In this document: piece after piece, positions 1-2,519 of the stretch
How positions within the stretch are numbered: position 1 is the first letter of the stretch
Layout: each line of letters opens with the position of its first letter
The notes under the pieces: model-generated
The model's database searches: none
Seen by the model: the letters and a program-made list of their open reading frames with translations, nothing else
Told to the model about the DNA's origin: nothing
Position numbers and translations under genes: made by a program
Assembly (NCBI GenBank): GCA_902510475.1
Contig: CABXCC010000007.1
Coordinates: forward strand, 1 to 52,378
Length of the DNA stretch: 52,378 bases
Source: an uncultured Bacteroidota bacterium
GTDB lineage: Bacteria > Bacteroidota > Bacteroidia > Flavobacteriales > Flavobacteriaceae
Reading direction: 5' to 3'

Positions 1-492
1 GAATCTGAAAGAGATTTAAAATATATAATTGCTCCGCACGAAATAGGTGAAAACTGTAATAGAATAAAACAAAAAATTAAAAAAAGATCTGTTCTTTTTT
101 CAGAAATAAAATCAAATCAATCTAAGGGTGATTTTTCATGTTTAATAATTGATAATATTGGGATGCTATCTTCATTATATTCTTACTGCACATTAGCATA
201 TGTTGGTGGGGGTATGGGAACAACAGGACTGCATAATACCTTGGAGCCAGCTTCATTTGGAAAGCCCATTATAATTGGTAAAAATTACAAAACATTTGAC
301 GAAGCTAGGATGATGATTAAAAATGGAGGAATGATCAGTGTATCTAACAACTATAAAGAGTTTTATAATTCATTTGAAAAAGCATTAAGTGATAAAGATG
401 AATTAAATAGAATGTCAAATAGTAATTCTGACTATTTCAAAAAGCAAAAAGGAGCTATCAATCTAATTTTAAATCATATAAAAAACGAATAA
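1..492 (+). CDS. waaA: 3-deoxy-D-manno-octulosonic acid (Kdo) transferase, C-terminal part (partial)
   Basis: The frame is open from the first base, so the 5' end lies outside the window; about 163 residues are seen. WaaA/KdtA transfers Kdo from CMP-Kdo to lipid A precursor at the inner membrane. The visible part is the GT-B C-terminal domain: IIAPHEI, then IDNIGMLSSLYSY, the glycine-rich GGGMGTTGLHNTLEP segment and the FGKPIIIGKNYKTFDEA stretch, all typical of the nucleotide-sugar binding half of WaaA. The internal Met at 163 is not the start, because the conserved motifs begin upstream of it. The gene ends 8 bases before a strong hairpin terminator. The family call is confident from these motifs; the missing N-terminal acceptor domain cannot be judged. 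Confidence 0.93.
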   Translation, partial: ESERDLKYIIAPHEIGENCNRIKQKIKKRSVLFSEIKSNQSKGDFSCLIIDNIGMLSSLYSYCTLAYVGGGMGTTGLHNTLEPASFGKPIIIGKNYKTFDEARMMIKNGGMISVSNNYKEFYNSFEKALSDKDELNRMSNSNSDYFKKQKGAINLILNHIKNE

Positions 493-500
493 AAAATAAA

Positions 501-527
501 AAAAGGGGGATGTACTACCCCCCTTTT
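501..527. terminator. G/C-tract hairpin terminator, bidirectional
   Basis: A perfect 9-bp stem (AAAAGGGGG at 501-509 with CCCCCTTTT at 519-527) closes a 9-base loop. It sits just after the waaA stop. On the minus strand it is followed by a long T-rich tail (complement of the A-run at 491-504), so it would also stop leftward transcripts coming from the attenuator at 557-707. Confidence 0.8.
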
Positions 528-562
528 AACATAAACAAACTAACTAAACTAATTATAAAAAA

Positions 563-589
563 AAAAGCTTATCATGATGATAAGCTTTT
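563..589 (-). terminator. Attenuator terminator hairpin of the orphan trp leader
   Basis: A perfect 12-bp stem (AAAAGCTTATCA at 563-574 with TGATAAGCTTTT at 578-589) closes a 3-base loop. On the minus strand it is followed by further T residues (complement of the A-run at 557-562), the form of an intrinsic terminator for leftward transcription. On the plus strand the only T-run is inside the stem. It lies 25 bases after the stop of the Trp-rich leader peptide at 615-671, which makes it the 3:4 stem of an attenuator. Confidence 0.75.
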
Positions 590-614
590 GAAATATTGTC
601 ATATAGCGATTACC

Positions 615-671
615 TCATGAAACGTTAATATCATGTAACCACCACCAGTTATTTAAAAATAATTTTTTCAT
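615..671 (-). CDS. trpL: Trp-rich leader peptide (trpL-like), 18 aa
   Basis: The reading frame ATG...TGA encodes MKKLFLNNWWWLHDINVS. Three consecutive Trp codons (TGG x3, positions 639-647) in so short a peptide, a MKK-type start, and a U-tailed terminator hairpin 25 bases after the stop are hallmarks of a trp operon leader peptide. In such systems, ribosome stalling at the Trp codons when charged tRNA-Trp is scarce lets the antiterminator form. The start codon is only about 5 bases after a possible -7 box (677-684), so translation may be nearly leaderless. There is no trpE or other biosynthetic gene downstream in the window. The peptide could act in cis on nothing, act in trans, or be a remnant of a relocated trp operon. 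Confidence 0.65.
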   Translation of the reverse strand: MKKLFLNNWWWLHDINVS

Positions 672-676
672 TAGTA

Positions 677-707
677 TAAAGATAGTGATCTATTTATTTA
701 TTGAAAA
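677..707 (-). promoter_or_regulatory. Possible promoter of the trp leader RNA
   Basis: On the minus strand TATCTTTA (677-684) matches the Bacteroidota -7 consensus TAnnTTTG except for the last base. A TTTT (704-707) lies 19 bases upstream, where the -33 TTTG/TTG is expected. Both boxes are imperfect, so this is a tentative call. Confidence 0.35.
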
Positions 708-744
708 GGTATTCACAAAAAATTTTTTAATTTATTTTTTTTGA

Positions 745-774
745 TTGAATACCCGATTAAATAGTCGACATTTG
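745..774 (+). promoter_or_regulatory. Possible promoter of the DEAD-box helicase gene
   Basis: TTG at 745-747 is followed after 19 bases by GACATTTG (767-774), one mismatch from the Bacteroidota -7 consensus TAnnTTTG. The helicase ATG is at 792, which would give a leader of roughly 10 bases. It is divergent from the trp leader promoter in the same intergenic stretch. Confidence 0.4.
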
Positions 775-791
775 CACGATTAAATAATTTA

Positions 792-2519
792 ATGACAAAG
801 TTTAAAGAATTAGGAGTTAATAAAGAATTGTGCAAGGCAATCGAGGAACTGGGTTTTAAAAAACCAACAGAAGTTCAAAAAGAATCAATCCCTTTTTTAC
901 TTACGGAAAATGAGGACCTAATCGCACTTGCTCAAACAGGTACAGGTAAAACAGCTGCTTTTGGCTTGCCTGCCATTCAACAAGTTGATGTAGAAAATAA
1001 AAATGTTCAAGTAATAATTCTTTGTCCAACTCGTGAATTGTGCGTTCAGATTTGTAAAGATTTAGAATCCTATTCAAAATACGTTAAAGGTATTAAGCTT
1101 TTATCTGTTTACGGAGGTACAAACATTGAAACACAAATTAAATCTTTGAAAAAAGGAGTTCAGATTGTAGTTGGAACACCTGGAAGAACCAAAGATTTAT
1201 TAAAAAGAAAAAATCTAAAACTTGAACTAGTTAACAGGGTAATTCTTGATGAGGCAGATGAAATGCTTAGCATGGGATTCAAGGATGATTTAGATTTTAT
1301 TTTAGATAAAACCTCATCAAATAGGCAAACAATGTTGTTTTCAGCAACAATATCTAAAGAAGTTAAAAGTATCTCAAAAAAATATATGAGAGATGCTAAA
1401 GAAATTACCGTTTCCAAAATAAATTCAACCGCAAAAAACATTGAACATCATATTTATAATGTAAGCTCAAGAAATAAATATGAGGCATTAAAAAGAATTG
1501 CTGATTTTAATCCAAATATTTATGGAATAGTTTTCTGTAGAACAAAAAGACATACCAAAGAAATAGCTAATAAGTTCATGGCTGAAGGTTATAATGCTGA
1601 TGCAATTCATGGAGATCTTTCTCAAAATCAAAGAGATGAAGTGATGCAGAGGTTTAGAGATAAGTCTTTGCAGATATTAATTGCTACTGATGTTGCCGCG
1701 AGAGGTCTAGATGTTGATAATATTACACACGTAATTAATTATTCACTTCCTGACGACCCTGAGGTTTATGTTCATAGAAGTGGTAGAACCGCTAGAGCTG
1801 GAAAAAGCGGAATTTCAATCGCTATTTCAAATGAAAGCGAAAGAAGAAAAATAAAATCTATAGAAAAAAAGGGAGCTATAAAATTCATTCCAAAAGAGGT
1901 CCCAACAGGAAGCGAAATATGTTCAAATCAGTTATTTAAGCTGATAGATAAAATTGAAAATGTTGATGTTGATGAGGAGCAAATCAAACCTTTTTTAGAA
2001 AATATATACAAAAAACTTGAATGGCTAAGCCGAGAAGAATTAATTAAAAGATTTGTGTCTGCTGAATTTAATAGATTTTTAAAATATTATAAAGAATCCA
2101 ATAAACTGCCTTCCAAAAGGTCAAAAGATAAAAGAAGCTCTAAAAGAGGTGATAGAAATGGAAAATCATTAACAGCATTTTCTATTAATATCGGAAGAAA
2201 ACACAGAGCAACTCCATTAGATATTATTTCTATTGTAAATAGAGCATTAAAATCTAATAGTATTGAAATCGGTAAAATTGAATTAGGTAGATATCAAACA
2301 TTTTTTGAGATTGATAAAGACTATAAGGATGATTTTATAAAAAATATTAAAAAAATTGATTTTAAGGGGAATGATTTGGTTTTAGCAGAGCCATCCGATC
2401 TTGATCAAAATCCTTCTAAAAGAAGAAAAGATAGAGGGAATAGAAGAAATCGTGGTAAAAGATCTGACTCTAGAAATTCATCAAGAAAGAGAAAAAAGAA
2501 AAAATCAAGATTTAGATAA
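792..2519 (+). CDS. deaD: DEAD-box ATP-dependent RNA helicase with DbpA-type RNA-binding domain
   Basis: This 575-residue RNA helicase has the motifs in order: Q-motif region (about 4-31), Walker A TGTGKT (49-54), PTREL (79-83), TPGR (129-132), DEAD (153-156), SAT (184-186), an IVFCRTKR segment, ARGLD (303-307) and HRSGR (328-332). Around residues 455-525 there is a DbpA/CsdA-like RNA-recognition domain (FSINIGRKHRATPLDI). The last 40 or so residues are a very basic Arg/Lys/Ser tail, probably disordered and RNA-binding. Family members unwind structured RNA in ribosome assembly, mRNA decay and cold adaptation. The gene is monocistronic, ends at a hairpin terminator, and converges with the PUL. 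The symbol follows the DeaD/CsdA group; the exact orthologue is inferred. Confidence 0.93.
   Translation: MTKFKELGVNKELCKAIEELGFKKPTEVQKESIPFLLTENEDLIALAQTGTGKTAAFGLPAIQQVDVENKNVQVIILCPTRELCVQICKDLESYSKYVKGIKLLSVYGGTNIETQIKSLKKGVQIVVGTPGRTKDLLKRKNLKLELVNRVILDEADEMLSMGFKDDLDFILDKTSSNRQTMLFSATISKEVKSISKKYMRDAKEITVSKINSTAKNIEHHIYNVSSRNKYEALKRIADFNPNIYGIVFCRTKRHTKEIANKFMAEGYNADAIHGDLSQNQRDEVMQRFRDKSLQILIATDVAARGLDVDNITHVINYSLPDDPEVYVHRSGRTARAGKSGISIAISNESERRKIKSIEKKGAIKFIPKEVPTGSEICSNQLFKLIDKIENVDVDEEQIKPFLENIYKKLEWLSREELIKRFVSAEFNRFLKYYKESNKLPSKRSKDKRSSKRGDRNGKSLTAFSINIGRKHRATPLDIISIVNRALKSNSIEIGKIELGRYQTFFEIDKDYKDDFIKNIKKIDFKGNDLVLAEPSDLDQNPSKRRKDRGNRRNRGKRSDSRNSSRKRKKKKSRFR

Follow-up and report, generated by a model that had tools for sequence, protein, structure and literature searches.

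A trp attenuator with no trp gene downstream, conserved beside deaD in several species of a marine flavobacterial genus

How does a complete tryptophan attenuator come to stand where there is no trp gene for it to control, and does it still do anything there? The question is raised by the minus strand of the window, by which we mean the whole stretch of 52,378 nucleotides that was analysed (contig C7 of genome G000, an assembly of 1.23 Mb that is 65% complete). A sequence-only reading of the region had described an 18-codon ORF containing three Trp codons, together with a 1:2 stem, a 12-bp T-tailed terminator and a second terminator at 501–527, all of which were confirmed. The antiterminator that it proposed, 605–614 paired with 579–586, also proved correct, and a further 6 bp (615–620 with 572–577) lengthen it. 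It had also stated that no trp gene follows, and on the minus strand of the window there is indeed none between the leader and waaA.

Anatomy and predicted folding of the leader

The features of the locus are as follows.

1–492, plus strand: 3′ part of a waaA-like Kdo transferase gene (stop at 490–492), convergent with the leader and truncated by the contig start
495–527, minus strand: second terminator-like hairpin T2 (527–501) with T-tail, just beyond the 3′ end of the convergent waaA
528–556, minus strand: spacer between T1 and T2, with the block TTAGTTTAGTTAGTTTG at 552–536
557–589, minus strand: terminator T1, a 12-bp hairpin (589–563) with T-tail, from the MFE fold and the terminator scan
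572–620, minus strand: predicted antiterminator, 620–615 with 577–572, 614–610 with 583–579 and 607–605 with 586–584
604–647, minus strand: 1:2 stem from the fold, 647–641 with 610–604 and 635–628 with 623–616 (97.5–99% of cells paired)
671–615, minus strand: leader peptide ORF MKKLFLNNWWWLHDINVS from the ORF translation, 18 codons and a TGA stop
647–639, minus strand: three consecutive Trp codons (WWW), identical in all 19 copies found in the genus
677–684, minus strand: −7 promoter-like element TATCTTTA (TAnnTTT[GA]), ending 5 nt 5′ of the leader ATG
792–2519, plus strand: deaD, a DEAD-box RNA helicase gene, divergent neighbour of the leader

The 163-aa waaA fragment is matched by Kdo-transferase models in a profile search, in every case below the cut-off. 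Scanning for sigma-70 promoters gave none at the leader. The element TAnnTTT[GA], which we take to be the Bacteroidetes-type −7 promoter consensus, ends 4–5 nt before the ATG in 19/19 genus copies, a spacing that makes the leader ORF of the genus probably leaderless; among 142 leaders from the wider family the distance is 4–5 nt in 45, and the element was not found in 44.

The MFE fold contains the 1:2 stem together with T1 (−25.2 kcal/mol, z −3.51), and when it is extended to T2 the z-score is −4.05, with none of 200 shuffles as good in either case. Four terminator-like sites were listed between 400 and 900, where shuffles average 0.1; three of the four are versions of a single hairpin. With a ribosome stalled on a Trp codon and the RNA behind it taken as free, the composite antiterminator is the MFE fold (−10.1 to −10.7 kcal/mol) for transcripts ending at 572 to 568, and once the transcript end reaches 566 or beyond the terminator fold beats it. 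A mutually exclusive terminator and antiterminator are both predicted at the leader, and are largely conserved in the genus.

The same hairpins might matter as DNA context only, with T2 and T1 ending the convergent transcript, the upstream part serving as the deaD promoter and the Trp codons as bystanders. T2 does lie just beyond the convergent gene, and the region upstream of deaD is partly conserved, but the terminator scan of 400–900 listed T1 for the minus strand alone, and the presence of the ATG, WWW, reading frame and antiterminator in all eight operon-less copies described below is not accounted for. We regard this explanation as improbable.

Homologues of the leader and the missing operon

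BLAST matched the leader in 16 other genomes of the same genus at E 2.1e-16 or better, and a model of the genus leader scored it above 100 bits in 17 of 21 genus genomes, giving 19 copies, two each in G006 (flagged as 6% contaminated) and G017; the model had been trained on the same 19 copies that it scored, while the BLAST result is independent of them. Because the leader has homologues by both methods, a chance look-alike is ruled out. Ten copies from nine genomes (G005, G006 twice, G008, G009, G011, G013, G015, G017 and G019) lie directly 5′ of the trpE of a trpEGDCFBA operon, and in six of these nine genomes (seven copies) the other side of the leader is flanked by deaD, as in the window. 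Among the products of the G005 operon TrpG, TrpD, TrpC, TrpB and TrpA reach curated cut-offs, while the family matches of TrpE and TrpF stay below theirs; the trp sets outside G005 were assigned by ORF order, length and start.

At the family level 299 genomes were searched with the leader model (E 1e-5), of which 186 have a match and 113 none. In the 145 family loci examined outside the genus (27 + 118, with 38 of the 186 matched genomes left out), trpE lies downstream of the leader in 140 and an ORF with WW or WWW at the model start in 142. In 103 of these 142 leaders the end of the ORF and the terminator share an exact complement of at least 6 nt, as against 393 of 2840 shuffled controls. 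The five TrpE-less loci comprise two contig ends (L179, L314), one trpB2 (L156) and two aspartokinase-like genes (L308, L328). The identification as a trp attenuator is supported by both anatomy and homology, the leader being of a known, family-wide type.

Several other features of the family loci may be recorded here. At L308 and L328 (about 301–440 of the reverse complement) a T1-type terminator without Trp codons lies upstream of the aspartokinase-like genes, and these terminators are perhaps attenuators for another amino acid. In two genera a trpB2 with no adjoining trpE is directly preceded by a Trp-codon leader (L156 1501–3008 in G225; L085 13123–14622 in G020), and the TrpB-like enzyme encoded there perhaps serves in indole salvage. 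A second GC hairpin with a TAGTTTTAGTTTG-like motif lies between T1 and trpE at L088 3867–3931 and at the corresponding position in further relatives that carry the operon. No leader was found in the more distant waaA-g446-deaD relatives L346, L347, L354 and L366. A similarity to Cellulophaga phage was rejected, with a best E of only 0.3.

Seven genomes, namely that of the window (G000) and G001, G002, G003, G004, G007 and G012, have the leader beside deaD with no trp operon there; what comes after it is T2 and then a convergent waaA or g446. No match at the level of TrpE, TrpD or TrpB was found in these seven orphan genomes, the search covering these three of the seven trp products. In the trpE search, which ran from G000 to G012, the TrpE proteins of the genus gave 410–431 bits, and all that matched in the orphans was a paralogue scoring no more than 99 bits; no match, true TrpE included, reached the model cut-off. 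TrpD is present in 10 of the 21 genus genomes, and TrpB-level matches fall in the same 10. Each such absence is weakened because the genomes are incomplete; the leader site itself is assembled. Among the 11 trpD-less genomes the deaD site was found in eight, and the leader is kept in all eight, that is, in the seven orphans and in G020 with its trpB2 (NF009057 at 718 bits); in G010, G014 and G018 neither leader nor deaD was found. A new sense-gene target downstream was also considered and rejected, the next same-strand ORF lying about 1.3 kb past T2 in the near-identical G003 and being missing in G012.

It is highly probable that the window leader was left behind by a trp operon since lost, and the host has probably become a Trp auxotroph. 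The earlier suggestion of a relic of a relocated operon stands in part: relatives carry the operon at the same site and the window does not, but the trpE, trpD and trpB searches of a genome 65% complete found no copy elsewhere.

Conservation and recombination at the orphan locus

Conservation of the Trp codons and stems in relatives, the lack of which would have told against the sequence-only reading, was found, with stem cells 97.5–100% paired across the genus copies. All eight operon-less copies (the seven orphans and the second leader of G017) keep WWW, the frame, the terminator and the promoter element. A leader with no function would nevertheless look much the same if the operon had been lost recently and repeatedly, or if the stretch had been exchanged by homologous recombination, so that there had been no time for decay. 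Such a pure relic is a possibility that we take seriously while doubting it, and most of the comparisons that follow bear on it. One broken 1:2 stem pair in each of three orphans (G001, G004 and G012) is in its favour; a fourth non-standard pair, the last in the set, is found in the operon-bearing G009.

Among G001, G004 and G007, 4-fold sites of deaD and thyA differ by 54–67% in pairwise comparison, near synonymous saturation, whereas the leaders differ at 7–9 of 113 positions (6–8%) and the spacers at 2–5 of 61–65, and identity drops immediately past T2. The contrast is weaker among G000, G002 and G012, whose leaders differ by 9–10% as against 30–39% at deaD 4-fold sites; here deaD and the leader show about the same nucleotide-level similarity, and conservation of the spacer does not extend from one type to another (37–87% identity in bins +120 to +180, with G012 unlike the others). 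Within each leader type the differences amount to 4–10% and avoid the columns in which operon leaders do not vary, which speaks against a relic: orphan-variable columns avoid operon-invariant ones in one comparison at 7/73 against 13/44 (Fisher p 0.0099) and in a second at 2/73 against 11/44 (p 0.00035). Four features taken together (WWW, an ORF of 15–20 codons, terminator and antiterminator, with thresholds set by us) hold in 19/19 genus copies. When the observed number of substitutions is placed at random in the leader of a present-day relative (4000 trials, the lineages not being independent), all four survive in 1.8% of cases for G000, 1.6% for G003, 2.9% for G002, 7.4% for G001, 11% for G004 and 57% for the second leader of G017; some of the substitutions may be older than the operon loss.

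The antiterminator pairing of 615–620 with 572–577 reads UCGUGA:UCACGA in 16 copies and UCAUGA:UCAUGA in G000 and G003, both sides of one pair having changed, and in G002 the complement is restored at a shifted place. This CATGA type of leader occurs, among the 19 copies, in orphans only, and its restored pairing again tells against a relic. By pair counts the covariation is suggestive only, consisting of one pair in two sequences, with shuffles reaching the pair count in 181/500 and the cell count in 11/500.

G000 and G003 are close relatives (deaD dS 0.08) and yet differ in three residues beside WWW, so that constraint seems to reach little further than WWW and the frame. This bears on the proposal that the leader peptide acts in trans, like peTrpL of Sinorhizobium meliloti. 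WWW within an 18-codon ORF in 8/8 operon-less copies fits that proposal, as does an ORF that is probably leaderless, a feature reported for rnTrpL in PMC7298713, but the differing residues argue against it, and we hold it to be very unlikely.

Each of the eight operon-less copies has one of two exact spacer blocks, and none of the ten trpE-preceding copies does, some of the latter sharing a shorter spacer stretch. The first block is found in G012, G001, G004, G007 and the second leader of G017, and the other, TTAGTTTAGTTAGTTTG, among the loci searched, only in G000, G002 and G003 and after trpB2 in G020. Blocks restricted to orphans and shared by distant species point to an old orphan state, contrary to a recent relic. 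Signs of recent loss or exchange are found alongside. Orphan G007 and operon-bearing G005 have identical leaders over 113 nt while their flanks have diverged (81/143 deaD 4-fold sites differ), an identity also expected from recent loss or from exchange of the stretch; exchange can imitate constraint. The deaD and thyA region trees disagree, indicating that the locus recombines.

Across the deaD–waaA locus (window 1–2519 and relatives) some genomes have g446, a gene for 424 aa or the trp operon and others lack them, and the locus looks like a recombination spot. At L087 7296–13936 (G017) two trp leaders, direct repeats 6.5 kb apart, flank a single trp operon.

The second leader of G017 lies directly 3′ of trpA, and its spacer and T2 are those of the orphan G004, a close relative (deaD dS 0.22). 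The G017 operon, by comparison, is close to that of G005 (trpE dS 0.15 against thyA dS 1.49), and its trpA end resembles, by eye, the sequence upstream of the orphan leader. In G020, trpB2 is placed between T1 and a G000-type spacer. Both cases look like trp genes that entered an already orphan locus. In the tree, where G000 is represented by G003, orphan genomes are dispersed, as would be expected if the operon had been lost long ago and regained several times, and also if it had been lost repeatedly; this dispersal and the evident operon transfer in G017 also suit a relic.

A candidate function and comparison with known systems

Weighing these observations, we slightly favour the reading that the leader is an attenuator of a lost trp operon kept as a free-standing Trp-responsive RNA that acts in trans; that the orphan leader has any present function we likewise put only a little above an even chance. 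The trpEGDCFBA operon would once have stood between deaD and waaA, and its loss would have left promoter, leader, T1, spacer and T2, with every part of the switch still present. The transcript would begin at the leader ATG or close to it. Given sufficient charged tRNA-Trp, the ribosome would pass WWW and T1 would form, giving an RNA of about 115 nt; with charged tRNA-Trp in short supply it would stall, the antiterminator would form and transcription would reach T2, giving about 175 nt. Continued action of this RNA in trans would explain why the element is retained in a host that is a probable Trp auxotroph. Transcription, switching, auxotrophy and function in trans are what we infer, beyond the anatomy, the homology, the lack of an operon at the site and the conservation in orphans that the sequences show, and the stand-alone Trp-sensing small RNA proposed earlier gains its support only indirectly, through conservation in several orphans.

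Searches for a target of the leader RNA in its own genome found none. The spacer motif occurs in the window only at its own site (up to 3 mismatches), another stretch of it occurs in the genome only at its own site (up to 1 mismatch), and TGGTGGTGG occurs in the genome 20 times and its reversed control 15 times, a comparison that is uninformative.

More tentatively, and with the balance somewhat against it as a whole, loss of the operon may have made the attenuator a small RNA gene in its own right, which senses an amino acid, yields RNAs of two Trp-dependent lengths and is maintained in several species of this small-genome marine flavobacterial genus; the orphan may then have served as the place of re-entry for trp genes, a whole operon in G017 and trpB2 in G020. 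If the orphan leader works, a cis-regulator would have become a stand-alone small RNA gene by loss of its operon and retention of its switch, and bacteria that no longer make tryptophan would go on sensing charged tRNA-Trp. Were it only a relic, the leader would nonetheless mark the site of loss and regain of tryptophan synthesis by recombination between ocean bacteria.

The type of leader is known and its orphan state unusual. Bacteroid-trp leaders have a short ORF with consecutive Trp codons and are located upstream of trp genes; the window leader agrees with them in its ORF and differs in having no downstream trp gene, so that control of a downstream Trp gene, one mark of a trp attenuator, is absent. 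In the trp leader of Escherichia coli (RF00513) region 1 carries the Trp codons and the pairings are 1:2, 2:3 and 3:4. The predicted structures of the window leader follow the same logic, and RF00513 gave no listed match in window 400–900, even at E 10. The Rfam family for the type is RF01692, 'Bacteroid-trp' (Rfam title: Bacteroidetes tryptophan peptide leader), defined in PMC2864571. The window copy scores 32.6 bits against it (E 0.069 in a 501-base search), short of the gathering cut-off of 49, which the G019 operon leader of the same genus passes at 51.2 bits; on 20 loci, two pass (one in the genus), 14 are listed below the cut-off and four, the window's own locus included, are unlisted. 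Among the titles and abstract openings listed in literature searches, we found no report of a trp attenuator kept after loss of its operon. In Sinorhizobium meliloti the terminated trp attenuator RNA, rnTrpL, and its peptide, peTrpL, act in trans, and the RNA starts at the ATG and is leaderless, as PMC7298713 reports. Likened to rnTrpL by that description, the window leader resembles it as a trp attenuator whose ORF is probably leaderless, and differs in that rnTrpL still heads trpE(G) whereas the window leader heads no trp gene.
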